Virus record (IMG/VR): IMGVR_UViG_3300023171_000009
Span: 34,477-98,476 of that record
From: a virus
DNA length: 64,000 nt
Direction: 5' to 3' (one strand)
Below the pieces are notes generated by a model. It did no database searches and had not been told where the DNA came from. It was given only the letters and a program-made list of their open reading frames with translations. The translations under genes were made by a program, and so were the position numbers. Positions 24,648-63,954 of the stretch are shown in pieces. Every line of letters starts with the position of its first letter. Position 1 is the stretch's first letter.

Positions 24648-25073
24648 TCACTTTTTCGGTTTTTTACGGGCAAAAAAGAAGCCGATAACCAATAATCCGA
24701 TCAAAATCATAATATCAGGCTCCGGAATAGCGCACGTTCCTGGAACAGGAACCGTAGAAACACTTATAAATTGCGGTCCCTCATACCCTAAAACCACGGA
24801 TTGCACTGGCACGAAGGGCGAATCAAATCGGATACTCGTTACGCTTGGCGTATAATTTCGTGTTCCCATGTATTGATACCCGTTAGAAATCGTTCCTACG
24901 TTCGGCATCCCTTGGATTGGCCCGTCAGAAAGACTTGAAAAAGAAGAAACATAAGCTTCCAGAAATACAATCTCCGTTCCCGCAGGAAACATGTAATCGT
25001 AAGTGTAAGTATCACCGTTTAAGAAGGCGGAACCTGTAACGGTATCGAATTGCAGAGTAAGTATAGTGTCCAT
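24648..25073 (-). CDS. PEP-CTERM-like sorting-signal protein
   Basis: 141 residues. The C-terminus has the three parts of a PEP-CTERM signal: PEP (117-119), a hydrophobic segment (121-134) and a basic end (ARKKPKK). PEP-CTERM signals direct surface sorting in some Gram-negative bacteria with exosortase, including Verrucomicrobiota. An N-terminal signal peptide is not obvious (MDTILTLQFDTVTGS), which is odd for this class. It could instead be a C-terminally anchored membrane or lysis protein. The preceding promoter (25084-25111) is strong. The 13-mer covers its stop region. Confidence 0.7.
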   Translation of the reverse strand: MDTILTLQFDTVTGSAFLNGDTYTYDYMFPAGTEIVFLEAYVSSFSSLSDGPIQGMPNVGTISNGYQYMGTRNYTPSVTSIRFDSPFVPVQSVVLGYEGPQFISVSTVPVPGTCAIPEPDIMILIGLLVIGFFFARKKPKK

Positions 25074-34150: not shown

Positions 34151-35578
34151 CTAGGTAGTCGTTACGGACCATCCTTTACCAGTCGCTACAGTAGTAGAAG
34201 CTCCGGCACCGGGGTTACCTTTAACGTTGATGTTTTTAGTATCGCCTGTAGGAGAAGCCCCAACCGCATTATACAAAGCCAATATTGTTGCAGATTGCAA
34301 AGCGTTATCATTTAGTTTCAAGGACGACACAAGCCCTGTGTTAGCCTCGGGGAAATTAGTAATAGTTTTGAAAGAACCGCACCCATAAAGCTCCAATCGT
34401 GTAATACTTCTTAGGTCACTTCCATCAAACGCCTGTAACGTTGTTATATTTCCTCCCACTAATTCCGCTAAGCTAAATAATCCGGAACCGCCAAAGAATA
34501 TCAAATGCGTTGAGGATATGTTTAGCGCTGTTAGGGCAGGCATCCCCGCGCCGCTGAAGAAAACTAGACTAGGCGTATTTTGTAGTTCCAACAAGCCAAG
34601 ACGATTAAATCCCGCTCCGCTAAAGGTCACTAGCTGCGTATTCGTGGCAGTCAAAATAAGAAGACTGGAAAGACCCGTCCCTTCCAAAACAGTAATGAGC
34701 GTGTTAGACAGATTCAGATTGATTAGCTTTTTCAAGTTAGAAAGATCAACAGAAGTAATAGGGTTAGTTGATAGATTTAAGGTAGTTAAATCGTCAAAGC
34801 CCGTTCCTTTAAATGAAGTTAAGCTATTAGAAGATGCGTTAAGGGTAGTCAGTCCTTTAGCATTAAATCCGGATATGCCGGTAACAACCATTCCCGGAAT
34901 TTGCAAATTTGTAATCACCCCCGCCGCAGCCCATACACGAATTATCTTTACGCTGCTACTGGTGGTCGTCTTGCTAGCGTCAGTATTACTTGTATGCTGC
35001 GTGATTGTATTATCCCACCATTGAACACAGTAAGCGCCAAGATTCGTAAGACAGCGGAACAGAACGCTTCCGGTATCTTTGGTGGTAGTAAACTCAATAT
35101 AACTTCGGACAGGAGGCTTAGAAGTTATAAATCGGTTTAAAGAACTAGCTGTTAACTCTATACTCTCCATGTATTTTTCAAGAGTGATAGGAGCACCAAT
35201 TCCATCGATTAAAACGGCAGTCCCGCCACTAAATCCGGGTTTGATGGAAACCAAGCCCTCTAAAGCCGCATTAACCAAAGTAGTGCGGTATTTCGCTGAT
35301 AAATTTACAGGAATATTAATAACCTTAACATCTTCTTCCCGTGTAAGGTTAACGATCTTTTCGTTATAAGACAAGGGCAGCGTTAAGGTGTCCGTTCCAT
35401 CGGAAACTCTCTGTTCATCTTTTAGCAAAGATGCCGGAGCCTGTTTATCAATTCCTCCTTGTGCTATGTGTAACATGTCCCCCGGATTTACTACTGTAGC
35501 GACGGGAAAAGAAATAATTTGGTTAGGTCCGGGCATAAAAAGAGTTTTAAAAAAGTTAACTAAAGGGGGTAAGTTCAT
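34151..35578 (-). CDS. leucine-rich-repeat tail protein
   Basis: 475 residues from ATG 35578 (MNLPPLVNFF). N-terminal structural-type region (VVNPGDMLHIAQGGIDKQAPASLL). From about residue 220 a run of roughly 22-24-residue repeats (LTTLNASSNSLTSFKGTGFDDL, LTTLNLSTNPITSV, LINLNLSNTLITV) forms an LRR solenoid. The end returns to a beta-type cap. LRR in a tail fibre suggests host-surface binding. The 13-mer (35609-35621) lies upstream of the start. Confidence 0.75.
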   Translation of the reverse strand: MNLPPLVNFFKTLFMPGPNQIISFPVATVVNPGDMLHIAQGGIDKQAPASLLKDEQRVSDGTDTLTLPLSYNEKIVNLTREEDVKVINIPVNLSAKYRTTLVNAALEGLVSIKPGFSGGTAVLIDGIGAPITLEKYMESIELTASSLNRFITSKPPVRSYIEFTTTKDTGSVLFRCLTNLGAYCVQWWDNTITQHTSNTDASKTTTSSSVKIIRVWAAAGVITNLQIPGMVVTGISGFNAKGLTTLNASSNSLTSFKGTGFDDLTTLNLSTNPITSVDLSNLKKLINLNLSNTLITVLEGTGLSSLLILTATNTQLVTFSGAGFNRLGLLELQNTPSLVFFSGAGMPALTALNISSTHLIFFGGSGLFSLAELVGGNITTLQAFDGSDLRSITRLELYGCGSFKTITNFPEANTGLVSSLKLNDNALQSATILALYNAVGASPTGDTKNINVKGNPGAGASTTVATGKGWSVTTT

Positions 35579-43107: not shown

Positions 43108-43890
43108 TTAACAGTCCCAAGGTATGTGCCTTGTTTTATCAGCCCAATCCATTTTATTTAAATGATGGCATACCGATTTCTTCCACGGCTGCCCCATATC
43201 ATGCACTTGCCATAAAAAATAATATGGCGGCAGAGTAATTACCCTTCCTTCCAATTGCTTTGCACTCGCTTTAAGATAACGACTAATAGCCAAAGGTCCA
43301 GCGAAAGCTAGGACTTTTTCGTTAACGTTCCTTAGTGTATTTTGAATTAAGTCAACTAATAAGGGTGCTCCGGCTTTACCCCACATAACCGTATTTGCTA
43401 TAGGATAGCCCCCTAACGAGGCATTTGGACAATGTTCACGGCTAAGAATCAATTCATACCGGCTAAAATCAGTAGCTATTGGAAATGCCTCCGTGTCTTT
43501 CAACGTGCTAGGAAAGGATGAATTCCGGCTATACTTGAAATTGGTAAAAGTGTGCTCAACCTGCGCTCCTTCCCACAATGAACGTATAGGTTTTAATGGT
43601 ATACAGTCTAAATCAATATACCCGCCTCCGAATGCATGGAGTATTAACAAACGTGAAAAGTCGCATTTTTTTATAATGCTAATTTTTTTATCTTGGCCTA
43701 ATCCGATATCACAAAAGAAACGAAAATACTTAGGATAAACTCTGCCGATAAACGTAAGTATTGCAACTTCATCCCAAACCTTTACTTGATATTCGGGGTT
43801 CATTTCCTGCCATTTTCTAGGCACGTCCTGAAGTTCTGAAGGTGCGGAAGACAGCCCTTGCCACCACATAAAATGTAAAATCTTTTCCAT
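43108..43890 (-). CDS. GT32-type glycosyltransferase (DXD)
   Basis: 260 residues. KILHFMWWQGLSSAPSEL...W...NPEYQVKVWD and FSRLLILHAFGGGYIDLDCIPLKPI with DLD (93-95) are the marks of the Och1/capsular GT32 (Gly_transf_sug) family. It would transfer a sugar from a nucleotide donor using a metal at the DXD. In a tail-gene neighbourhood it may glycosylate phage fibres or alter host surface glycans. The 13-mer variant (43094-43106) is right after the stop. Confidence 0.85.
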   Translation of the reverse strand: MEKILHFMWWQGLSSAPSELQDVPRKWQEMNPEYQVKVWDEVAILTFIGRVYPKYFRFFCDIGLGQDKKISIIKKCDFSRLLILHAFGGGYIDLDCIPLKPIRSLWEGAQVEHTFTNFKYSRNSSFPSTLKDTEAFPIATDFSRYELILSREHCPNASLGGYPIANTVMWGKAGAPLLVDLIQNTLRNVNEKVLAFAGPLAISRYLKASAKQLEGRVITLPPYYFLWQVHDMGQPWKKSVCHHLNKMDWADKTRHIPWDC

Positions 43891-44395: not shown

Positions 44396-47300
44396 TTAGA
44401 TAGATTTTGTAGTTACGCGAAGCTGGCGCACGTATAAACGATTAGCAGGGCTTCCCGCTCCTTCAATTTGAATGCGTGTAGTGTAGTCAGGAGCTACAGC
44501 ATGTGCTTTAAGCAAGTTAGCAGGACCGGACGAACCGGCCACGGCGGGCAATACCCATTCCGCTTCATACCAGCCATCTTCTAAAGCCCGTTCTAGCTTA
44601 AGCTCCATAGGACGCCATTCCGTAACCGCTACTCCACTAGCGTAAAGCGGTGTTCCTCCGCTATCCCTTACATGAGATAACATCTTAGGTGTTGCAGTAG
44701 CTCCGGCTTGCTTTCTGTATTCAAAAACACACGTTGCACCAAAGAAATCCGTTATATTGATAAGGTCGCGGGCATTGAACTTTTTGCTAATGTAATTACC
44801 CGTGTCCAACATCGTCCCCTTAACAACCTGCGGGCGGGAATAAATAATAGGGGACAAGTTAGGGTTAGTGATAACATTCGCGGTTAGAATAACGTCCAGA
44901 ATGATATCACCGGTAATACGCAAGGGCAGCGTTAGAGGGGTTTCTTCAGATACTTCATAGACAACACCCGTAGAAGTAGGAGTGAACCGGAACTTTACAT
45001 CGCATTCCGCATTAGGGCGTAAGACTGTGGCTCTTGCTACCAAATCACTTATGTTTGTAGCGGAAACGTTACCCATGGGCACCGTAAAGGAGCTTGTGGT
45101 AAATTTCGCAGCGATAAGCCTAAACGTTAGATCCTGTTTAGGGTGCGGTGTCCAAGTGGAAGCATTAGAGGAAGACAACATTTCCCCTCCTTGATATGGC
45201 TGACCTGTAACAAATCCAGCAATACCACCGTTTAAAGCAGGGGTCATATATTCCCCAATACCAGCAATACAAATGCTATGATCGGGATCATCTGTCATTA
45301 CAACAATAGCATATTCTTTTCCTCCGATGACGTGCGCTTCGATTTCAAAATTAATACGTGTCCAAACATTAAGCGGTATGCCGTTGGTATCCACGGTGAG
45401 GCTAGACATATCAAATATGCCTTCAGCAAATACCTCTTGGTTAGGAAACCCTACCGTAGTTTCTCTTAACTGGACATACACAATTTGCGGACCGCTTCCA
45501 CGTTTACAGAATTTAAGATCGACGCCAGTTAAGATACGATCTTCATCAAGAGTAAAGGTTTCCGCTAAAGGATCACAACGCTTTTTCTTTTTGCGCCTTC
45601 CGGAACGTGTAGCCTGACGAACAATAACAGGATATGATATCTGGCTCATGCCAATAAATGAGCAATCCCCATAACTGCTATTGCCGATAAACTCCACTGC
45701 TTTTTCTCCGGTAGGAATACCGGCAGGTATAGAAAAGCTACCTGTAATTTTACCGTTAGCGTCAGCAGGACTTGTGCTTGTGAAGGGCAGCGCTCCAGCA
45801 ATAATGTTGCTAAAGACTATGCCGTCAAAACGAATCTCCACTAGCTGTTCTCCGGGGCCAAACCCTTCCACAAGGAACGTGATAGGTTGTGGCCTTATGG
45901 TATCCCCTGCATTTACTTGAGTTGTTACAACACTGTTAGCAACAGTCAGGTTATTTATTGAAGGTGTCGCATTCTGGTCTTGGTCTACGGTAACCCGCAA
46001 AAAGTTAGATATAATCTGCGTGTTCCAGTTACTTGAGCTAACAATCCAGTTGTCGCTGGCAGGTGAAATCGTTGCACGCGCCGGAATAGGTTCAAACGCT
46101 TGATAAGGGTTAATCTTGCTGCAAGCGGTTACTTTGCTTTGATCAATAACAATCTCATCGGTGTAAGGCAGTAGATGATGCTTTAAGCTATTAGTGTAGT
46201 AGTTAGGAACTTCTGCGGTCCCTGAAATAGGTAGCGTAAGCAAACCGTCAATAATCGCCATGTCATTAGGCAGAAGGTTCTCGCGCAAATCGTTATCAAA
46301 AAACGGGTCGACAAACTGTCCGCGCCTATCCGCAGGAACCCGCGCCGTCAGATCATTACGCAATCGCGATTGTGCCACTAAATCATATAAATCATCGACA
46401 CGATTAACAAGCTTCTGTTGATCGTCAAAGTTGATAGGAACAGTGCGAATGTCCTTAACTTCGGGATCGGTATACCAATTATACACTATAAGAGCCAGCT
46501 TTGTATGCGTGTCAGGAATAGGAGGCGCTGCGGGATTAATCAAGGACGGCCTTCCCTTGATTACATGGAACGATCCTTCACGGTCGATAGTGATAGCATC
46601 AACCCTTTGTAGCTTGTAGGTGTAGCTTACGTAGACGATGGAAGGTGTTGTGCTGGTGTTAGGAACTAAGCCGGTTAAGGTTATAGTTTTAAAGTCCTGT
46701 GCAACGATGTTACCACGTCCGTTAGTAAGCAAATTCTCACGAACCGCAACCTTTACCGTATAGCTTCCGGATGTTGGCTCTGTTGCTCCGCTTCCTGACG
46801 GTGACCAGTCTATTTTACCATCAACCAATAAATAGTCTCTTGGCGATTGATATACTGTAGCGCCCTGCTTGACTTCAGTTACATACTCAACACTGGAGTT
46901 TACAAGAGAATCCTGCCCACCAGTGGAGCCTTTTGTAAGGGTTTCAGTCAATTCCACAAGCCCGTTGATAGCCTGCAAAGTCGCTTTAGGGAATCTGTTA
47001 AGTGTCAGAATATACTGACCGCCATTAGGCACGTAAGTTTCTGATTCAGTTTCGCTAGTAGCGACATCGTAATTAATATCAATAGCAAGGGGCGTGTCGA
47101 TAGTTCGGCCTACGTTATAGCCCCTTACATGAACCGTTCCTTGAGAAATCGTAAAGATGTATTGATCACTGGCGTGTTGCGCATTCGCGGCCTCAAATCG
47201 TGAATACCTAACTTTAAAACCATCAACTGCATAGTTTCCGTGCGCTGTGTAGTCATACCCTGCCACTGTGTCAATGATCGCGGTGACTGCGGGCGGCAAA

Positions 47301-47869
47301 TCTTTGATAATAATGTTACCGTTATCTATGTCATAGATAGGGTAAAAAACACCTTCTGGTGCGGTTTCATCCTGCAATCCTGTAGCGTCTGCCCATCCCC
47401 ATTTAACAAGAGTTTGGACAACCGCCGCGCCGGGTTCCATGTAGTTATCGAATCCGATAGCGGGATCTTTAAGAAGCGGATCTTCTTGGTCTGTAACGGT
47501 CTTGATAACCGTTCTAATACCAACGCTAACCCGGCTATTCATGGGAATAGTCAAAGTGCTTTCCCCCATGAAGAACACTTTTCCCAGCAAATACAGCCGC
47601 CCTTCTGCAATCCTAAGATTACCCGCAGAACTGCCCTCAAGTATAGAGGGGGCAAGACCTTCTAAAATGTCCCCATTGTTATAAAGACCGTCAGCCACTC
47701 CTTGAATCACATCGTAGAAATGGCCCTGCATAGCCATTAATTCCGCAGATTGAATAGCTCTGCCCGCTCTAAATAAAGGCGCTCCGTAGCCCTTAGCTTT
47801 GCGGGCGGCAGAGTTGTTAAAATAATTGTCAGGAAGACCGGGACCGGATTCTGGTATAAAGTCAGACAT
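44396..47869 (-). CDS. giant DUF4815 baseplate/tail protein
   Basis: 1157 residues. N-terminal NYFNNSAARKAKGYGAPLFRAGRAIQSAELMAMQGHFYD is typical of DUF4815 tail proteins (first about 400 residues), followed by beta-rich domains with GxxxVxxG repeats, SFSIPAGIPTGEKAVEFIG (about 700-730) and a Lys/Arg run (SGRRKKKKRCD) at about 760, then a C-terminal beta domain with adhesin-like repeats. It probably links baseplate and fibres. A 13-mer (46064-46076) lies in the middle. Confidence 0.8.
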   Translation of the reverse strand: MSDFIPESGPGLPDNYFNNSAARKAKGYGAPLFRAGRAIQSAELMAMQGHFYDVIQGVADGLYNNGDILEGLAPSILEGSSAGNLRIAEGRLYLLGKVFFMGESTLTIPMNSRVSVGIRTVIKTVTDQEDPLLKDPAIGFDNYMEPGAAVVQTLVKWGWADATGLQDETAPEGVFYPIYDIDNGNIIIKDLPPAVTAIIDTVAGYDYTAHGNYAVDGFKVRYSRFEAANAQHASDQYIFTISQGTVHVRGYNVGRTIDTPLAIDINYDVATSETESETYVPNGGQYILTLNRFPKATLQAINGLVELTETLTKGSTGGQDSLVNSSVEYVTEVKQGATVYQSPRDYLLVDGKIDWSPSGSGATEPTSGSYTVKVAVRENLLTNGRGNIVAQDFKTITLTGLVPNTSTTPSIVYVSYTYKLQRVDAITIDREGSFHVIKGRPSLINPAAPPIPDTHTKLALIVYNWYTDPEVKDIRTVPINFDDQQKLVNRVDDLYDLVAQSRLRNDLTARVPADRRGQFVDPFFDNDLRENLLPNDMAIIDGLLTLPISGTAEVPNYYTNSLKHHLLPYTDEIVIDQSKVTACSKINPYQAFEPIPARATISPASDNWIVSSSNWNTQIISNFLRVTVDQDQNATPSINNLTVANSVVTTQVNAGDTIRPQPITFLVEGFGPGEQLVEIRFDGIVFSNIIAGALPFTSTSPADANGKITGSFSIPAGIPTGEKAVEFIGNSSYGDCSFIGMSQISYPVIVRQATRSGRRKKKKRCDPLAETFTLDEDRILTGVDLKFCKRGSGPQIVYVQLRETTVGFPNQEVFAEGIFDMSSLTVDTNGIPLNVWTRINFEIEAHVIGGKEYAIVVMTDDPDHSICIAGIGEYMTPALNGGIAGFVTGQPYQGGEMLSSSNASTWTPHPKQDLTFRLIAAKFTTSSFTVPMGNVSATNISDLVARATVLRPNAECDVKFRFTPTSTGVVYEVSEETPLTLPLRITGDIILDVILTANVITNPNLSPIIYSRPQVVKGTMLDTGNYISKKFNARDLINITDFFGATCVFEYRKQAGATATPKMLSHVRDSGGTPLYASGVAVTEWRPMELKLERALEDGWYEAEWVLPAVAGSSGPANLLKAHAVAPDYTTRIQIEGAGSPANRLYVRQLRVTTKSI

Positions 47870-47890: not shown

Positions 47891-49174
47891 TTAAAGGCTA
47901 ACAACGCGTGTCATTATGTGGGCGATAGCAGAAGAATGAACAATACCCATCGAATCCTCTAAAACAAGGGGCGTGCCTTCTGCGGAAATAGCATTAATGG
48001 GAATGTTTTCTATGCCGTTTGCAATCGTTGCAGCGGCTCCACCTACGAATATTCCCATTTGGTTAATAGGCGTTGCATCTGCTATATCATCGGCTTGGAC
48101 AACACTATTAAAAATAACGGCTCCAGTAGGTTCCGCTGTAATGTAATAACGATTTGATGATAAATCAGTATAGACGGCAGGCGCGCTAGACTTCCTAAGA
48201 TGACTTTGCCTTATTATGGCACCTGTGGCTATATCAAATACGTCCCAAACAAGCGCTTTTTCTGTGGCGTAAATCATTGTTGCGCATCTGCTAGTATCGT
48301 TGCTCCAAAGTTTTACCGCATTAACCACCGCGCCTTCTAAACTACCACTAGCTAAAGTCTCAACTCTGGAACTGACATTTAACACTCTAACAGTTCCGGA
48401 AATATCAATCTCTTCATTTACGTGTTGATGGCCACATAGAACTAAATCCCATGTTCCGTCCAATAAATGGGCCAATTCCGCTAACCAACCCGGACGGCCT
48501 GACACTGGTGGATAATGAACAGCCAATACCTTCCAAGGAGAGCTTGAAGCATTAGCCGCTGCTTTCAACGCTAGGGATTGCACACTCTCAATGCCTGTTC
48601 CATCCGGCTCTGTATCTACTCCCAAGCTATTCTTACCGGCATGATAAGAACTAAAATGAACCGGAGGGACTTTTCCAGAAATTGGAGTGTCGTAATCGAT
48701 TGTCCTTGAATAATAACGAGCGTTGCTAAGATAAGTAAACTTAGCGAGCATATTTGCTAGCCCTAAGTCATCTTGATCAAGATTTCCGTAAGCAGGAAAG
48801 AGTTTTTGAGTAGAAAACCACGGGTTAAACGCGGCTAACGCCGCATTTATGTTACTAGTTGTAGGGCTTAAACTAACTAGGTTGCCAGCATAAATAACGC
48901 TTTTAGCTACAGCAGACGTAAACTTAGCTACAATTTGATTTTGTCCCGTTCCAGTTAAGCCTGCATCAGAAGTATAGCCGATACTGGCTTTAGGTTGATC
49001 CATAACCTTAGAAGCATAACCTTTATTGAATACTCGCTTACGAAGAAACCTTGAAGCAAGGGCGGTTGAATCCGCAGTCAGGGGCGCAACACTGGAGCTA
49101 AATTCAAAGTGTATCTCAGAATCCAGTAAAGCTTTTAAGAGTGCGGCTTTGCCCGCTTTTGGAAAGGTTACCAT
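47891..49174 (-). CDS. metallophosphoesterase-like protein
   Basis: 427 residues. In the calcineurin-like pattern it has SVIYAGNLVSLS (GD replaced by GN), PAYGNLDQDD (GNHD replaced by GNLD), VLAVHYPP (H220) and LVLCGHQHVNEE (GHxH at 248-251). Several metal ligands are altered, so activity is uncertain. It follows the gpI gene and precedes DUF4815 in the baseplate cluster. The 13-mer variant TGCAATCGTTGCA (48020-48032) encodes AATIANGIE. Confidence 0.7.
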   Translation of the reverse strand: MVTFPKAGKAALLKALLDSEIHFEFSSSVAPLTADSTALASRFLRKRVFNKGYASKVMDQPKASIGYTSDAGLTGTGQNQIVAKFTSAVAKSVIYAGNLVSLSPTTSNINAALAAFNPWFSTQKLFPAYGNLDQDDLGLANMLAKFTYLSNARYYSRTIDYDTPISGKVPPVHFSSYHAGKNSLGVDTEPDGTGIESVQSLALKAAANASSSPWKVLAVHYPPVSGRPGWLAELAHLLDGTWDLVLCGHQHVNEEIDISGTVRVLNVSSRVETLASGSLEGAVVNAVKLWSNDTSRCATMIYATEKALVWDVFDIATGAIIRQSHLRKSSAPAVYTDLSSNRYYITAEPTGAVIFNSVVQADDIADATPINQMGIFVGGAAATIANGIENIPINAISAEGTPLVLEDSMGIVHSSAIAHIMTRVVSL

Positions 49175-51640: not shown

Positions 51641-52771
51641 TTAAGAATGAATAGCCGGGTCAGTGGCAGGGATGTAAGGATCATTTCCCGGAATCATAGC
51701 AGGCCATGATTTAGGAACATAGGCATTGATAGCGGGAGCTGCGCTAGGATCGGGAGCCTGCCCCGCAGGATAAGTTACCGGAGAAGCAGGCATACTAAAC
51801 CAATCATAGGACGTGCCTTGAAGTGTAACTACAGAGCCAGTCATATCAAGGGCAGCACCATTTGAGGTTAGTGTAACATACCCTGAACTGCTTATTACTG
51901 CGGAAGTATTAGCGGTGTTAAGCGATATCCCTTGTGCATCAAGTATGGACTTAACCTGTTGATTAACTAGCTCCGAAATTATAGAGCTTGCGGTTAGCTC
52001 TTGAATAGTTTTTTCTACGCGTAACAATATCGCGTCTTGTGTTATTTTTAATTGAGCCGCTTCAGCAACTTGTGCGTTAATGCTAGTTTGATCAAGCTTA
52101 ACAAAAGAGGCTCCTTTAATTAGTGCAATGATTTCACTTTTGGATAACCGAATAGCAGTAGCGGCACCATCAACTTGAAGTTCAATCCTATCTTCGTAAA
52201 CCGCTATCGATGTATTCTTTACCCGTAAGCTTATTTGATCAATAGTGCCTTCAATACAGGCCCCCGGAGCCATTTCTTTACCTATAGTAACAAAGAATCT
52301 CCCGCCTTCAGGCAGATGTGTTCTAACGTGCTTCTGTCTTCTATCTATTTCATTTACAATAGCGTTGATAAGCTCTTTGTCCTCTCCGTAGGCCCATCGA
52401 CTTATTTCAGGATCAAGGGCAGCATGTGGTGCGTGGCCTTCTTTGTTTATACTGCAAAATATAAAGCCGTTTGTTATATCCCCGTTAGGTGAAAGAACGG
52501 CAACTTGATCGCCTAACTCATGAGCTTCCCAGCTTCTATTTTTACCGGCCCTAGAGACAGCTTGCGGAACCCAAAAAGACAGCACATCCGCCTTACCTTC
52601 TTTTTCATCAGGCATAGGCTCTTCACTTCCAATTCTAACACGGTATTTACCAGCGTCATGATCGACTTCCACCACTTCGCCAAAAGTAAGCATATCAGAT
52701 AGCCTCTTATTTAAGAGAGCTACTTGTGCATTTTGGTTAAAGCCTTTTGGCCTAGTGCTGCTGTTATTCAT
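51641..52771 (-). CDS. gpV-like baseplate spike
   Basis: 376 residues. Opening MNNSSTRPKGFNQNAQVAL with an OB-like region (GEVVEVDHDAGKYRVRIG) and GDQVAVLSPNGDITNGFIF, followed by beta-helix-type repeats (SQISLRVKNTSIAVYEDRIELQVDG, ISLNTANTSAVISSSGYVTLTSNGAALDM). This fits P2 gpV membrane-piercing spikes. A Pro-rich tail ends it. The 13-mer (52124-52136) encodes KSEIIALIK. Confidence 0.85.
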   Translation of the reverse strand: MNNSSTRPKGFNQNAQVALLNKRLSDMLTFGEVVEVDHDAGKYRVRIGSEEPMPDEKEGKADVLSFWVPQAVSRAGKNRSWEAHELGDQVAVLSPNGDITNGFIFCSINKEGHAPHAALDPEISRWAYGEDKELINAIVNEIDRRQKHVRTHLPEGGRFFVTIGKEMAPGACIEGTIDQISLRVKNTSIAVYEDRIELQVDGAATAIRLSKSEIIALIKGASFVKLDQTSINAQVAEAAQLKITQDAILLRVEKTIQELTASSIISELVNQQVKSILDAQGISLNTANTSAVISSSGYVTLTSNGAALDMTGSVVTLQGTSYDWFSMPASPVTYPAGQAPDPSAAPAINAYVPKSWPAMIPGNDPYIPATDPAIHS

Positions 52772-53691
52772 TGATTATCGGCGTATTGAATAGGAACTTG
52801 AATCAGTGCTGAATTGTAAGTCAGTGTAAGTAAATGGTCATTAGTGTATACAAGGGCGGTCCCGTAATCCGGTAATGGGGGAACGTCGTAATCGATATCC
52901 TCAAGTGCTGCCCTTAGCGAATTAACGCTAGGCAGTTGTGTTGTCGCGAAGAAAGCTCTAGTCTGCTTTGGAAATTCAGGGATCTTTTCGTATTTAGTTA
53001 GCTTTAGATTTTGGTCATAGATGCTGGCTACTCGTTTCCATTCATAAGCAATAGCCGTGCTTAGCAAAGCCGGAGGCTTAAGTTGCGGCCCATATATCCA
53101 TTCATCTTTAAATATAGGAATAGGGTTTTGACTGTATATAAGAGCTAATTCAGTAAATGGGATGGGGGTTTCTTCTTCGCTATCAAGCCAATCCGGTCCT
53201 TGTGCTAACCCTTTAAAGGCGGGGTTAAATACCGTATAGCCAAAACTCCAAACAACCTCATACCATAACTTAGCATTGTCAGAACCCAATGTCCCTTCAT
53301 CTATGTATAAAGGCGTATCCGATAACACGATTGTTACTGGCCTCCATCCTAAAATCGCGGCTTCTAATTCACCAACTAAAGGGTTAACAGAATCAACTAC
53401 TTTAACAGCGTCCTTACCCGCACCACTTCCTTTTTGTCTACTATTATCAACACAGACAACAAATGAAATCGTTGCAATTCTTGGTTGTGAACTACTAACC
53501 TTATTGTAAGCCTCGCCTGAACCTGACACTTTTGAAACTGCCAAGTAAGGTGTTTCTATGTTAAGACTTGGCAGCGTTACATTACTAAAAACGGAAAGAC
53601 CTGCTACGTTATTATTGAAGGAGGGGCATTTTGCCCTCAGCAAAAGCACAAGTTCTTCCATGCTAAAATCTCTTTTTGACGTAGCGCTCAT
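52768..53691 (-). CDS. DUF1834/gp37-like tail protein with C-terminal repeat
   Basis: 307 residues. The N-terminal 150 (MEELVLLLRAKCPSF...LYIDEGTLGSDNAKLWYEVVWSF) fits a tail terminator/gp37-like family. The last 30 residues (GTALVYTNDHLLTLTYNSALIQVP) match the C-terminal repeats of the gene at 54128-55168. Its ATG 53691 overlaps the next upstream stop. A 13-mer (53464-53476) encodes RIATISF. Confidence 0.65.
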   Translation of the reverse strand: MSATSKRDFSMEELVLLLRAKCPSFNNNVAGLSVFSNVTLPSLNIETPYLAVSKVSGSGEAYNKVSSSQPRIATISFVVCVDNSRQKGSGAGKDAVKVVDSVNPLVGELEAAILGWRPVTIVLSDTPLYIDEGTLGSDNAKLWYEVVWSFGYTVFNPAFKGLAQGPDWLDSEEETPIPFTELALIYSQNPIPIFKDEWIYGPQLKPPALLSTAIAYEWKRVASIYDQNLKLTKYEKIPEFPKQTRAFFATTQLPSVNSLRAALEDIDYDVPPLPDYGTALVYTNDHLLTLTYNSALIQVPIQYADNQ

Positions 53692-54125
53692 GTAGTTAGC
53701 TCAGAAAATATTTGTCTAATTTTGCTTTTATAAATCTCTCTATATCTATCAAACCCCGGTTTCATAAAAGGACGGGGTTCCATCTTACGGGTTCCGCGTT
53801 CTAGGAAATCAGGATAAGGTGCGCCGGTTTTACTCGTTACCCTTGGCGCTATACTTGCCCTCATCCCGCCGCTAGTATAACGCGGATTTAAATCCTTGTA
53901 AAGAGCACCTGACAATATTGCGGGATACTCACCCGGCGCACTGGCTTGATGTAGCCTGCCATTAATCTTATAGATGCGCCCATGTTTAGGCTTGCGCATC
54001 TCTCCTTGTATGTGTCTTTGAATCTCTCTAGCGTATTTACGTGTCCAGAATATAATCCTATTCCTAGCAGCTACAGGAATTTTAGAAAAGTTATTCGTAG
54101 GACGTAATACGCGAGCAACGGCCAT
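53688..54125 (-). CDS. head-tail joining/tail completion protein (gp10-like)
   Basis: 145 residues, very basic, with RNRIIFWTRKYAREIQRHIQGEMRKPKHGR and GALYKDLNPRYTSGGMRASIAP and PYPDFLERGTRKMEPRPFMKPGFD. The last part is a hallmark of HK97 gp10/P2 gpS-like phage virion morphogenesis proteins. It helps close the tail top. Confidence 0.8.
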   Translation of the reverse strand: MAVARVLRPTNNFSKIPVAARNRIIFWTRKYAREIQRHIQGEMRKPKHGRIYKINGRLHQASAPGEYPAILSGALYKDLNPRYTSGGMRASIAPRVTSKTGAPYPDFLERGTRKMEPRPFMKPGFDRYREIYKSKIRQIFSELTT

Positions 54126-54127
54126 AC

Positions 54128-55168
54128 CTAAAGATTAGTTGGAACAGTTACAAGGCTTCCTTCTGACGTATATACCATATCTCCATTTCTAGCATTAACT
54201 ATGGAATACCCATGTAGAACAGATAGACGTATATAAGAACCCACAATTTGAATCGCCCTTCCGTCATAGGTGTATACTTGCTGAGCATCCTTGGTATAGA
54301 CGAAAGAAGTTCCCGCTTGAGGGGTAGGCAAATCTATTATCTGTATTATGGCTCCATTGTTATCAAGGACGGGTAACCCTTCGTTTTCGTAAACAAACGC
54401 ATACCCTGTTTCAGGGGTATTAGTATAAAACCTAGGAATTCTTATAGCCGAACCGTCGTTTAGGAATGTCTGTTCCGCATTATTGGTATATACGTAAGAA
54501 AACCCTTCTTCCGGTATCATCACGCCAAGATCGGGAATCAGCGGATACTTATGATCATTTAAAACAACCACTCTGCCGTCTGCCAAATACAAGAAACTGT
54601 AATGCGTTCCTATCTGAATAGGTGTTCCGTTTTCGTCTCTTACTATCGTGGTTTCGTCTACAGTTAAGTAATTAAAGTCCTCAACTCCTGCGGGTGTATC
54701 ATCGGTCCAGTAAGGGTTAAATTCACGATTAAACGTAGTGTCGCCCGGCTCTGATACATCAATGTCCAAGTCCAAGGTAAAACCGCATTGTCCTACTTCT
54801 CCATACGGGTTACTGACAACTTCAAGGAAAGCGTTTATCTTTCGTTCGCGACGGGAACCGATTACCTTATAAACCCTCAAACCCCATACCACAAAATCAT
54901 TGAGCGTAACAAGCTGTCCTTCATCCCTTATAACGAATACAGTCTGTATTTTACTATCCGAATCAATGACGCCGTCCAGTCGTTCCTCTCCTTCATCAAC
55001 CGCCGCAAGCGTTTGGATAAACGGCTTAACACGTTCCTCAAATACAGCCGTTCCCTCTATGGCAACCTTTTTAGCGTGGATAAAGGCCACGGGTTCAACA
55101 AGTTCCCCCAGCCTGACTTTATTGTCAGCTTTCCACGCACCTTTACGGCCATTTGAATAACGTTTCAT
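54128..55168 (-). CDS. head-tail adaptor with five-fold C-terminal beta repeat
   Basis: 346 residues. Residues 1-130 contain VEPVAFIHAKKVAIEGTAVF and GLRVYKVIGSRRERKINAFLEVVSNP, as in head closure or head-tail connector proteins. Residues 160-346 hold five imperfect repeats of about 33 residues with the core G-x-S-F-V-Y-T-x-x...D-G-x-A-I-x-I (examples GFSYVYTNNAEQTFLNDGSA, GTSFVYTKDAQQVYTYDGRA). The end of 52768-53691 has one more copy. The repeats may be an exposed adhesive or decorating domain. Confidence 0.7.
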   Translation of the reverse strand: MKRYSNGRKGAWKADNKVRLGELVEPVAFIHAKKVAIEGTAVFEERVKPFIQTLAAVDEGEERLDGVIDSDSKIQTVFVIRDEGQLVTLNDFVVWGLRVYKVIGSRRERKINAFLEVVSNPYGEVGQCGFTLDLDIDVSEPGDTTFNREFNPYWTDDTPAGVEDFNYLTVDETTIVRDENGTPIQIGTHYSFLYLADGRVVVLNDHKYPLIPDLGVMIPEEGFSYVYTNNAEQTFLNDGSAIRIPRFYTNTPETGYAFVYENEGLPVLDNNGAIIQIIDLPTPQAGTSFVYTKDAQQVYTYDGRAIQIVGSYIRLSVLHGYSIVNARNGDMVYTSEGSLVTVPTNL

Positions 55169-55171
55169 CTA

Positions 55172-55816
55172 TTAAATAATACGGCGATTTACTTGGGAAC
55201 TCCAAAAGCCCGCTAACAATGATAGAGCACTCTGTGGTATAGCAAGGGCAGAATAATCGTTTACTTCTCCGGGGGTTGAAAGCCAATGTGCAATGATTTC
55301 AAAACATACATGAACCATCGAAGGTCTGTTAGGGTTTAGTTCGTCAAAACCGGCAGTGTATTTAACCGCTAGTTGTGATTTAATAGTGTAAGTAGTGCTA
55401 ACCCCATTTTCGTCGAGCCAAAGCAGGCTTGCGCTTGCCCTTCTATTGTCGGGCCTACTAAGCCTATATTTAGCGGGCAAAATAGACGTAGTGCCATCTA
55501 GCACTTCATCGATGCTGATAATAGGGCCGTTAGGTATAGCTATACCGTTTCTGGTTTGATCGCTGTCCACCCATTTTCCGTTAATCCCGTAAGGGTCGCA
55601 ACTGTAGCGAGGCTTATCGAAATAACTGATATACTGCGTAGGCAGAATAACACAACGGGCGGTCTGTCCTGCTAGTTGGACAGCCGCCCTTAACATGCGT
55701 TTCAGTTTATTATCAATCTTAGGACTGACAATTACTAAATCCGATTTGAGTTGTGCTAATGGATAGAAAGCCTCAAACGCCGTCTCCAGTGGAGGGGTTA
55801 AAAGCTCTGTAGTCAT
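55172..55816 (-). CDS. head-tail connector protein
   Basis: 214 residues. Start MTTELLTPPLETAFEAFYPLAQLKSDLVIV...LRAAVQLAGQTARCVILPTQYISYF is typical of small connector or gp6-like proteins of HK97-fold phages. A beta-rich centre and a C-terminal hydrophobic helix follow. The gene order (capsid, 126-residue protein, connector, adaptor, completion) is the usual one. The 13-mer variant (55289-55301) lies in the 3' part. Confidence 0.65.
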   Translation of the reverse strand: MTTELLTPPLETAFEAFYPLAQLKSDLVIVSPKIDNKLKRMLRAAVQLAGQTARCVILPTQYISYFDKPRYSCDPYGINGKWVDSDQTRNGIAIPNGPIISIDEVLDGTTSILPAKYRLSRPDNRRASASLLWLDENGVSTTYTIKSQLAVKYTAGFDELNPNRPSMVHVCFEIIAHWLSTPGEVNDYSALAIPQSALSLLAGFWSSQVNRRII

Positions 55817-57478: not shown

Positions 57479-58714
57479 TTAACGGCGTTTTTTGGTGTTA
57501 GCGTTCAATGGCATACAGCGTGCATTGAGCATTTTTTGAAGCGCGAAAGGATCACCCCTATCGTCTCCTTCTGTTTCGTTGTTGTCTTCTCCATCTTCAT
57601 CTTCCTCGTTAGCGTCTTCTCCATCCTCATCTTCATCCAATACAGGCGCGGGAGACTGGCCCAAACTTTTGCTCATCTTAATGACAAGTTCTTTAAGCGC
57701 AGCTAGCTCTTTACGAGTAGCGGAATCAGAAGCACTTTCCTTAACTTCAAGGAGGGCGGAAGCTTGTTTCTTAACCTTAACGGCAGGCGTGGACTTGGTA
57801 GGGGTTTCTTCGTCATCGTCCCCCAACAGTTCCTTAGCATATTCCGCCTTTTTAACTTTGGTAGGGGCAGATTTCCAAACACCAACTAGGGCACGAAGAT
57901 AATCGCCGTATTCAGTAATCAACCCGTCAACTTCTCCGTCAACGTCGTCAGACTTCATGAACACATTACGCAAACCAACGCGCATTGCGGCTTGAAGTTC
58001 ATTAAGCCCTAGCGGTCCTTTATCCTCGCTAGCCGCAATAACGGCTTCAATGGTTTTAGCGGCGGTGCCGACACTCCAAGAGTCAAACTTTTTGATGCGG
58101 TCAGCGACGGCGGCAGGAAGTTTTTTCGCTTTAGGCGTAAAGCTAGTGGCATCAGTAGCGGGAGCGTCCTTAGTCACTTCCTTTTTACCTTTAGCCTTAA
58201 CAACGGGTTTCACGTCTTCGGGCTTTGGCTTAACCACTTCTTCTTCCTCTTCCTCCGTTTCGGCATCGGCATCTTCCGAATCACTTTCAGCGTCGTCAGC
58301 GTCAGCGTCCTCCGCATCTTCCTCCGCATCTTCATCTGCGTCAGCGTCCTCCCCTTCCTCAGCGGCGTCAGCGTCATCTTCCACTGCTTCCTCCTTGGCT
58401 TTATCAGCCTTGGCAACTTTCTTAACAGGCTTCAATTCACCCGCGAAAATAACCATGCCTTCAACGTCGCTTCCGATGTTTTCAAGCTTGAGGAATTTGC
58501 TAGACGGAGAATCCACGACGACGAAGCGGTCAGCCTTCTCAAGGATAGTAACTCCTTCCATTTCGTATTTCTCATCAAGGACGGCCTGAACCGAATCTTG
58601 ATCTTCGAAATCCGATTTCAGGAATTCAATACGTTGAATAACCGGTTCTGGATTGGCCTTCTTAACAAGCTTTACGCGCCCGTTAGTAAGGCTAGATAGT
58701 TTTTTGAGTTTCAT
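57479..58714 (-). CDS. acidic scaffold-like protein
   Basis: 411 residues. Residues 1-95 contain a small domain (LKPVKKVAKADKAKEE after ILEKADRFVVVD). Residues about 105-180 are a dense Asp/Glu/Ala run (EDADADEDAEEDAED). Residues about 195-310 are helical with SVGTAAKTIEAVIAASEDKGPL. Near the end, basic-acidic alternation and SDSATRKELAALKELVIKMSK coiled coil follow. Position between protease and capsid is the scaffold position. The coiled coil near the end supports this. Confidence 0.6.
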   Translation of the reverse strand: MKLKKLSSLTNGRVKLVKKANPEPVIQRIEFLKSDFEDQDSVQAVLDEKYEMEGVTILEKADRFVVVDSPSSKFLKLENIGSDVEGMVIFAGELKPVKKVAKADKAKEEAVEDDADAAEEGEDADADEDAEEDAEDADADDAESDSEDADAETEEEEEEVVKPKPEDVKPVVKAKGKKEVTKDAPATDATSFTPKAKKLPAAVADRIKKFDSWSVGTAAKTIEAVIAASEDKGPLGLNELQAAMRVGLRNVFMKSDDVDGEVDGLITEYGDYLRALVGVWKSAPTKVKKAEYAKELLGDDDEETPTKSTPAVKVKKQASALLEVKESASDSATRKELAALKELVIKMSKSLGQSPAPVLDEDEDGEDANEEDEDGEDNNETEGDDRGDPFALQKMLNARCMPLNANTKKRR

Positions 58715-59776: not shown

Positions 59777-61834
59777 CTATGCAACGATTTCACTTCTTAC
59801 CTTGGAGTCTCTTGGTATGATTTGGACTTCATTTGGCGGGCTAGGAGCGCCGCTTAAATCTATATAAAACAACCCGATATTTATTCTGCTATTCTGTAAC
59901 CCGGCCCTTGTCGCAAATGCTCTTACTTCCGTCGTTGTGTTGATCGTTATAGGGCCTGTATATAGTGTTGAAGCAGTAGTAGGATCGGTTCCGTTTAGGG
60001 TGTAGTAAATAGCACTAGCTCCTGTGCTGTCCAAGGTGACCACAACAGGCTCCTCATAGGTGTAAGGTTCTGGAGTAAACACTGGCACATAGGCTGCGGA
60101 GGCTGTGCCACCACTTCCTTCAATGGCTCCTTTAGTGGTGAATACACTTCTTGGATTGTTGTTACCGTCGAAAGGAATAAGGCTTCTATTTGTAAGGGCG
60201 GTGACCGCTGCCGGAGAAAGAACATAGTAATCATGCTCTATAGGATCACGGTATTTAACAGTCCCTAGCGTGTGCCCTTCACCGGGTGCAAAACCTGTAG
60301 TTCTTCTGTTATGATTTCCCATCCATTTGATGCCGGGAACAAGTTCAGGGAAGTTTTCATTAGTAACAACTACATCGCCCAATGTCTTCTTATTTAGAGT
60401 CATCCCCATTATGTTGTAAGCGAATGAACTATCTTCTGACAATTCAAAACCATTAGGGTCACCCGTGTCTTTAGCCGTTCTGCTTTCAAGCTTAACGCCG
60501 ATAACTTGGTTTCCGTAAGTATTATTCCAATGCACGCAACCCCTCATCCTGAAGAAATTGCTCTCCTTACCATCGCTAGCAAGTTTAAAGAACCTATTGT
60601 TTATGAGGGCATGCCTAATTATTTTCAGCGTGTCTGTCATGAATAGGCATTGCACTGCGGCATTATCCACAATGTTATTAACCCACATGCAGTTTTCTTT
60701 ATCAACGATGCTGAATTGAATAGCGTCTCCGTGAACACCGTCCAAGGGGCGTTGATCTGTATAACGGCAATCCCGCACCCATGGCACATTCATCAAGTCT
60801 CCAGTGATGTTGTTAACATCCATTCCTGACATATAGTGCGTTGCGGTGCATTCTGCTATGTTACCCCAATCACGTATTCTAGCCCTATAACGGTTAGTCT
60901 TTGTGATGTAAGCAATACCGCAACTTTGCCCTTTAAGTGAGGACACCTGCCCTTCGATTCGACCCTTGCCAAAAACGTCAGAACCGTCAATCCACATTAT
61001 GACTTTATCCCCGGTAGAGGCGCCTGCGAACGGTGAAGGATCGGTAGTTCTATCGATAGTAAGCTCTCTTAAACGTATTAATCGAAAGCTAGAGCGAACT
61101 CCGGTGGCTCCGATTTTTTCAGTTAAGACAACATTTTCGCGGTTACATCCGGGAGCCAAAGCCAAGGTTAGCCATCTGCTTTTCGCGGTGTAAGGCGCTC
61201 CTTCCATCGGCACTTGATAATGCCCATCCCTAATCAAAATGCACCCATTATCAAGCTGGCCGTTATAGCCTTTCTTAAAGCAATCGCTTAACGTCGTATA
61301 GGGCTTTGCTTCGCTTCCATCGGCAATTGCAGGGTTAGCAGTTTCATCAAGCCATAGTTTAGGCTTGGAATATGAATTAACAATAGAGGCGTTAGAATAA
61401 AGTATTAAGCAAGATTCACTGGTAGGAGGACCGCCAGTTGTTTTGAAGTTATCTTGCGCAATGAAGGGCGGTCCATCTTCCGGGTAGGCTATAACTCTAA
61501 CCTGAACGGCTCTATTTTCTGTAGTAGGCAGCAATCGACATATGTATTCAAAATACCCTGTGTCAGGGTTTTGTTCCATGCTAGTAACATCTATAGGAGT
61601 GCCGTTGTCCGCTATGAATCTAACTTTTTTAATGCCTGTGCTGTAATGCATGTGTCCAGTAGGATGCACGGCAAAAAAACCTATTATTACAGGCGCTTCA
61701 TAACTTTGGCATGACGGAGTGCTCCATCGTCCCATTGGCCTATATTTAGAACCCCACGCGCCCGGAACGCCTACCGATTCAGGTTGTGGTATAAGAGGCC
61801 AATTAAGATCATTGCCGGGGATTAAGTCTATCAT
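59777..61834 (-). CDS. beta-helix tail fibre with chitobiase-like C-domain
   Basis: 685 residues. Residues 30-130 are a beta domain ([18 protein letters not shown]). Residues about 165-560 read like a right-handed parallel beta-helix ([36 protein letters not shown]). The stretch 570-665 ([33 protein letters not shown]) is a chitobiase/CHB_HEX_C-type domain. The tail SKVRSEIVA is encoded by the 13-mer (59780-59792). Likely receptor-binding or glycan-degrading. Its ATG overlaps the collagen-like gene stop. Confidence 0.8.
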
Positions 61835-63954
61835 ACTAAAGTTGTGTAAGGGTTATTTCCTTTTCTATATACATCCATTATGTCTTCATCCGAGAACCAC
61901 GCCCCGCTAATCATAGCAAATTGCAGAGTGCCATAAAGACCGGAAGTCCCTGTAGAACTTTCAGCTTTAGAAGCCATTTTAGCACGCGTTGTTTCAATCG
62001 GCTCCGGAATAGTTACTGCTCCGGAAGTGTATACTAACTCTCCATCAATATATGCGCGTATTCTAGCACCATCCCAAGTCATCGCTAAGAAGTGCCATAA
62101 GCCATCATTACAAACTTTAGTGCTTTCATAGTTTACTAGCGTTATACCAGTATCACTATAAAGTCTAAACAAGGGGCATCTACCGTCTGAATTACCTGTC
62201 CGGATAGCGGCCCCTTTAGTTTTAGAATCATGCCCTACGTGCATGAAGACAGCGAAAGCCTTATTAACGGTCCATTTAGCCCATACGCCTATCGTAAATT
62301 GAGAGAGGTTTGTGATTTCGCCTAGCGAGCTAGTATTCCCGTTGCTGCCCGAATATGCGCTACCCGCAGTCGCACCAGAACCAAAACTAGTCGCAGGATC
62401 GGGTGAGCCTAGAATGCCAGTTATTCCATGCGTATATGCCCCTGAATATCCGCCAGATTCGTGAGAACCTGCTAGATCGATCATTGCGGCTCCGGTGTCG
62501 CTAAGAGGGAAAAACTGTCTAACGTCTGGTTTAACCTGTAATATATAGTCTATATAGGTGTATAGGGTTTCATTGGTTGTAACTATTGCAATCGTTGCAC
62601 TCCATTCCGATCCGCAAACCGTGGCGCTGGCATCATTCGAATTTATAGAGCGTATTCTAACCCAATGTGTTGTAGAACCCGTCCTTCCTGTAACAACGTA
62701 AGTATCAATAGAAGCAGGAATTATATCCTCTAAATCCTCCCACGTTTGTTTATTATCAGTAGATATGCTGATTTGATATCCGCCATTTATAGGAAGGATA
62801 GAAGGCGGGTTGAAATTAACTCTGAACTCAGTATCGCTTACCACCGTTGCACTAAGTGAAGACGGCGGAATGGTAGGGGGAGTATAAATAACTTGAGGCT
62901 GCTGAACTATGGATAGGCCAAAATCGTTCCACCCAACAATTCTCATTAGATAGCGCCTGTTAGACTTAAATCCACTAATAGTCTTAAATAGGTCTAGTCC
63001 TTTACCAGCAAGGGCGGCACTTGTCGCGACGGTTGTCCACGTTTCACCCTCATCAAGACTTACTTGATAGTAGAAACCGCGTTCCTTGCCGCTTGTATCT
63101 GTTGCGTAAAAATCGATATCCTCACCAATCCCGTTTTCAATAACGTGCCCTCCAAAACTTCGGGCAGTGACATCAAAAGTGTTTGCAGCCACTTGCAAAA
63201 TCTGAATAGAAGTTGCTGGACCGTTAGTATCTCGGGAGCCGTTAACAGTCCCGCCGGTAACGTGACCTACTCCGGCACCAATCTGTCTAACATTCCAGAT
63301 ATAGGCAGCAAAAGACGAGTAAGGCAGTCCATCCGCCATAAAAACAGACACATCAGCCCCTCCCAACAAACGAATAACCTTACCTAATCCTGCATTGCTA
63401 GCATCAAGCGTAACAGAAGTTCCACTAACATTAATGACTTCAATGGCTGTAGCACCTGCAATACCTTGGGAGCCAGTGTCCCCCTTGTCTCCTTTATCGC
63501 CTTTCAATCCTTGCGGCCCTTGAATGCCCTGCGCTCCTGTAGGCCCTGCAACTCCCTGCGGTCCAGTATTGCCAGTGTTACCTTTAGCTCCCGTAGCGCC
63601 AACCGGTCCTTGTGGTCCTTGTGGTCCTGCTGGACCAACCGGTCCTTGTGGTCCAGTAGCGCCTGTTAATCCTCTAGCACCGGTTGCCCCTGTAGGTCCG
63701 GCAGGTCCAGTATTACCTGTTGTCCCCTTATCTCCCTTTGCACCAGTAGCACCGATAGGGCCTTGTGGACCAACGGGGCCTTGCAATCCGCCGTCTTCTA
63801 CAATAGTAGCTAGAGCATCCCTAACGTCTTGAAGGTCGGCATTACTTGGAACATCTAGGGTTGTCTGAAAAGTTTCTTTTTCGTCCGGACTCAATGTCTC
63901 TTTAAATAACAAAGAAGATACGGCTTCATCAAGTTTTCCGTTATTGCGGCTCAT
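61831..63954 (-). CDS. collagen-like tail fibre with LamG-type end
   Basis: 707 residues. Residues 1-50 carry [19 protein letters not shown], also seen in 39982-41166. Residues about 55-165 are G-X-Y triplets ([19 protein letters not shown]) that form a triple helix. Then come two FN3-like repeats (about 275-455), and a LamG-like lectin domain near the C-terminus ([25 protein letters not shown]-type loop, [10 protein letters not shown]). Trimeric fibre binding surface sugars. The 13-mer (63984-63996) lies upstream of ATG 63954, and a variant (62587-62599) inside. Confidence 0.82.

Follow-up and report, generated by a model that had tools for sequence, protein, structure and literature searches.

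What is the short repeat that extends a probable neck protein of an uncultured phage, and what may it do where head and tail meet? Phage heads and tails assemble on separate pathways and must then recognise each other. The source considered here is an uncultured virus infecting bacteria, and the window is a stretch of 64,000 nt, positions 34,477 to 98,476 of IMGVR_UViG_3300023171_000009, a virus record of 98,476 bases. As read from its genes, which include those for sheath, tube, gp25, J, and I, the virus is a contractile-tailed phage. Positions 54128–55168 are one gene of 346 codons on the minus strand, whose plus-strand frame is riddled with stops. Its product, P0001, and a second carrier of the repeat, P0002, are listed in Table 1 with their neighbors.

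Table 1. Carriers of the repeat, repeat units, and adjacent neck genes, in positions of the window.
Feature	Positions	Strand	Basis and remarks
P0001, probable head-closure (Hc1/stopper) protein (346 aa) carrying the repeat array at its C-terminus	54128–55168	-	Gene order, HJ05 gp37 alignment
Head-closure-like domain, P0001 residues 20–155	54704–55111	-	Alignment spans almost the whole of HJ05 gp37
Repeat unit 1, P0001 residues 189–221	54506–54604	-	Weak; leave-one-out 4.5 bits, p = 0.0055
Repeat unit 2, P0001 residues 222–254	54407–54505	-	Strong; leave-one-out 35.6 bits, p = 0.0005
Repeat unit 3, P0001 residues 255–285	54314–54406	-	Strong; leave-one-out 25.4 bits, p = 0.0005
Repeat unit 4, P0001 residues 286–318	54215–54313	-	Strong; leave-one-out 39.2 bits, p = 0.0005
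Repeat unit 5, P0001 residues 320–343	54140–54211	-	Short, weaker; leave-one-out 9.5 bits, p = 0.0005
P0002, probable tail terminator (307 aa) ending in a repeat unit	52768–53691	-	PF23840, HJ05 gp39
P0002 C-terminal repeat unit, residues 277–307	52771–52863	-	Strong; leave-one-out 24.4 bits, p = 0.0005
Neck1/tail-completion protein, between both carriers	53688–54125	-	phrog_5, E = 2.4e-9; without repeat
Head-tail adaptor	55172–55816	-	phrog_442, E = 2.8e-13; without repeat

The Repeat and its Units

When P0001 residues 121–346 were compared with themselves, ungapped diagonals scored 80 at lag 33, 76 at lag 64, and 55 at lag 31, all above 52, the top score among 1000 shuffles. In leave-one-out profiles, every withheld copy was scored against 2000 shuffles of itself (floor p = 0.0005). 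These scores divide the six copies into three strong and two weak ones in P0001 and one strong copy in P0002, and the repeat is confirmed as real. Five copies in one protein and one closing its neighbor had been counted in an earlier note on this DNA, and the count was borne out, with all six passing the leave-one-out test and two of them weak. The unit length of 33 residues given there is seen as a lag, but not as an exact period, the spacing being variable, from 31 to 34 residues.

A possible half-unit at about residues 164–187 of P0001, chosen by eye, gave p-values from 0.01 to 0.69 against the six other units. P0001 ranks fifth in internal repetition among 471 proteins, a set made of the two carriers and 469 proteins of 90–450 aa encoded downstream of the capsid genes of relatives. 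The array is acidic, and P0001 residues 159–346 contain two Lys and no Cys. A profile search of open frames from the whole 98.5-kb record, run in pieces, found no further copies; the scores of the source copies are circular in such a search, the absence elsewhere is not. A collinear C-terminal half common to P0001 and P0002 past the last unit was considered and dropped (p = 0.14 under standard gap costs and 0.014 when gaps were made cheaper).

From its sequence the unit reads as a short beta meander, three short strands with tight turns between them. The structure prediction proposed in the earlier note agreed in giving an all-beta model of two units, but with low confidence (mean pLDDT 58.4), and the full-length model of P0001 was useless (pLDDT 31.8). 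Foldseek searches with the weak two-unit model returned 511 matches, none at E ≤ 0.001. We infer a beta fold for the repeat array.

Identity of the Two Carriers

The capsid gene is followed, going downstream, by an unknown gene (55858), the adaptor gene (55172), P0001, the neck1 gene (53688), P0002, and a baseplate spike gene. The arrangement adaptor, P0001, neck1, P0002 is matched in Aeromonas phage HJ05 by gp36–gp39, of which gp36 passes Phage_connect_1 (2.1e-4) and gp38 resembles HK97-gp10 (0.0033). The P0001 gene thus sits between adaptor and neck1/terminator genes, as does its counterpart in HJ05.

Residues 20–155 of P0001 align weakly with HJ05 gp37 (E = 0.006 as a single comparison), and the score was equalled by 1 of 2000 shuffles (p = 0.001). 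HJ05 gp37 itself falls just short of Phage_HCP (PF05521; E = 6.9e-5, 23.8 bits, cut-off 25) and matches phrog_25 at E = 5.4e-4. P0001 has no significant match to PF05521 (E = 0.17) and none to phrog_25. Its assignment therefore draws on gene order and on gp37 as a single intermediate, and it is termed a probable head-closure (Hc1/stopper) ring protein, not an established member of the family. The protein had earlier been called a head-tail adaptor; a neck ring protein it seems to be, but the adaptor itself is the product of the adjoining gene (Table 1).

For P0002, the first half aligns with HJ05 gp39 with a score of 138, shuffles reaching at most 60. HJ05 gp39 passes Phage_tail_terminator (PF23840) at 6.1e-15, and P0002 reaches E = 3e-4 with 21.1 bits, under the cut-off of 27. 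Both proteins also match phrog_209, which is labeled as portal protein. On the HJ05 gene order and the two alignments, P0001 is read as head closure and P0002 as probably the tail terminator, a more exact reading of what had been described as a neighboring tail protein. In a contractile phage, these proteins would thus probably form the pair of adjoining rings at which head and tail are joined.

Neither gp37 nor gp39 of HJ05 has the repeat array. Since gp37 stops about where the extension of P0001 starts, the array is, as judged from this alignment, an addition relative to the HJ05 proteins. Identity between pairs of copies is 12 to 50%, over at most 24 positions, and in the most similar pair the same codon is used at 5 of 12 identical residues. 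As identical residues are often encoded by different codons across copies, the duplication appears to be old, with the pattern kept at the protein level.

Other Genes in the Window

Several other genes, all on the minus strand, deserve mention. The 411-aa product of 57479–58714, between the protease and capsid genes, has a long acidic low-complexity run and is scaffold-like; it has no Pfam match at E ≤ 0.01 and is weakly similar to the proteins preceding the capsid genes in HJ05 and Agrobacterium phage JP1. The tail region encodes a 1157-aa protein (44396–47869) with a 588-residue match to DUF4815 (E = 8e-130), a 260-aa protein (43108–43890) with a match (E = 1.3e-11) to PF04488, a family of sugar-binding DXD glycosyltransferases, and, directly after tail protein I, a Calcineurin-like phosphoesterase (47891–49174; PF00149, E = 1.8e-7). 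The 707-aa product of 61831–63954 is fibre-like: it combines collagen-like repeats with a weak stretch of fibronectin III, and its C-terminal domain resembles laminin G. A 141-aa protein (24648–25073) ends in a sorting motif of the PEP-CTERM type, with a score above the cut-off of PF07589 (E = 8.5e-5); the motif may hint at the host group.

Relatives of the Repeat

The array and its single units had no convincing match among Pfam, PHROGs, and NCBIfam models, the best being a 27-residue match to phrog_1453 (E = 0.0023) and one to PF08450 (SGL; E = 0.11, below the cut-off). The earlier note had recognised no family for the unit, and this holds for the libraries searched, in which no known common domain was convincingly matched. 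The phrog_1453 match was set aside after 10 records had been checked, one having a weak match in a gene at the expected protease site.

Searches of sequence collections gave a similar picture. Tblastn searches of 50,697 phage records with P0001, with the array, and with a single unit found nothing, and a search of 72,556 plasmid records with the array gave two matches only (E 2 to 3). Scanning of IMG/VR with P0001 and a scan with baseplate J found no relative, and a scan with the unit profile A2 returned six stretches, none of which was confirmed. A DNA pattern for VYT-x9-DG-x-AI was found in 30 stretches, 26 of which have the motif within an open frame; the best repeat-profile E among them was 0.44.

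The array was not seen in any close relative. It is absent from 95 capsid-based loci (best repeat E = 0.15) and from 10 genome loci (best repeat E = 0.32), but many of these loci are short or distant, and a head-closure gene could be recognised in only a minority of them, so the absence there is weak evidence. Other internal repeats near the capsid genes of relatives look, by eye, unrelated to the P0001 unit. The literature covered on extended or repeated head-closure proteins, with most subscription journals outside this coverage, reports no such array.

A short stretch of the FlgF/FlgG rod hairpin resembles the repeat unit. The best match in 398 genomes had E = 2.7e-4 per genome, and ten matches were found at E ≤ 0.05, against a chance expectation of about 20; three of the ten read as FlgF/FlgG-type from sequence. 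The match count being under chance, the kinship is unsupported, and it was rejected as within chance (398 and 200 genomes).

Possible Roles of the Array

The reading preferred here, with a probability of about 40%, is a sleeve on the outside of the neck, covering or reinforcing the head-tail joint. P0001 would be a head-closure ring protein extended by five tandem units and P0002 a tail terminator ring protein with one unit at its end, the two rings, by analogy, stacking at the joint. If they do hold the stopper and terminator positions, the two rings at the joint share one kind of repeat. The array and the P0002 unit would then surround the neck from outside as an acidic, beta-rich cover over the stopper-terminator junction, built into the ring proteins themselves, whereas in phage 812 the job is done by separate decoration proteins. 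Both the exposure and the reinforcing role of the array are inferred from this analogy. The earlier suggestion of an exposed domain near the neck, for decoration or host attachment, is on the same grounds plausible.

Attachment as such, with the array as an adhesive module at the neck that binds a polymer on the host surface or some other part of the cell, is a somewhat unlikely alternative. Beta units in tandem would suit such a role for a protein of the virion, and Ig-like domains carried by phage particles have been proposed to be adhesive. The neck is, however, distant from the tail tip, and no sugar-binding family was matched in the libraries searched. From known collars come two parallels: a domain of the Milano collar resembles glycan-interacting proteins, and host sensing is proposed for the collar spikes of XM1 (PMC10491603).

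The Milano terminator buries a C-terminal arm, through which the topmost subunit of the sheath gains a beta strand (PMC10491603), and the extra beta-sandwich of the 812 terminator likewise binds the sheath (PMC12886913). The P0002 unit, also at the extreme C-terminus, could then be a docking arm adding strands to the top sheath ring, with the P0001 array as strand-exchange assembly joints. This is doubtful, as the sheath is without a copy of the unit in the profile search of the record, and the five units on P0001 are left unexplained.

A more specific version of contact at the joint, in which stopper and terminator units bind like with like as a beta-sheet zipper locking the separately assembled head and tail, is improbable; if true, it would be a head-tail joining device from one duplicated repeat common to both sides. 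That the array has no selected role, being an old expansion tolerated at an exposed C-terminus, agrees with its absence from the 95 capsid-based and 10 genome loci and with the degenerate outer units, but is very improbable given a residue pattern that persists despite differing codons for identical residues and the same unit on a second neck protein.

Comparison with Known Neck Systems

For the proposed sleeve over the joint, a close likeness is with Staphylococcus phage 812; it is drawn from the published description, set beside the genes read here. In 812, the neck channel consists of portal, adaptor, stopper, and terminator rings, and stopper and terminator each have a beta-sandwich, which the counterparts in E217 and Pa193 are stated to lack (PMC12886913). 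The neck decoration proteins are gp164 and gp56, decoration proteins span the junctions, and necks without them are often deformed or broken (PMC12886913).

In Agrobacterium phage Milano, a beta-rich collar surrounds the neck (PMC10491603). As proposed here, a myophage neck has a beta-rich covering, and the C-terminal arm of the terminator touches the sheath. The Milano collar protein gp13 is a separate protein forming four 15-fold rings held by disulfides (PMC10491603), whereas the P0001 array has no cysteine and is part of a ring protein.

Stopper and terminator proteins with additional beta domains are already known; the unit described here has no named family in the libraries searched. Its limitation to two ring proteins that probably meet at the joint offers a defined site for studying how necks are strengthened, decorated, or locked. 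As in 812 (PMC12886913), a contractile phage would have extra beta-rich mass on both stopper and terminator. The extras of 812 are single beta-sandwich domains and separate proteins, whereas here one short tandem repeat would serve both rings.
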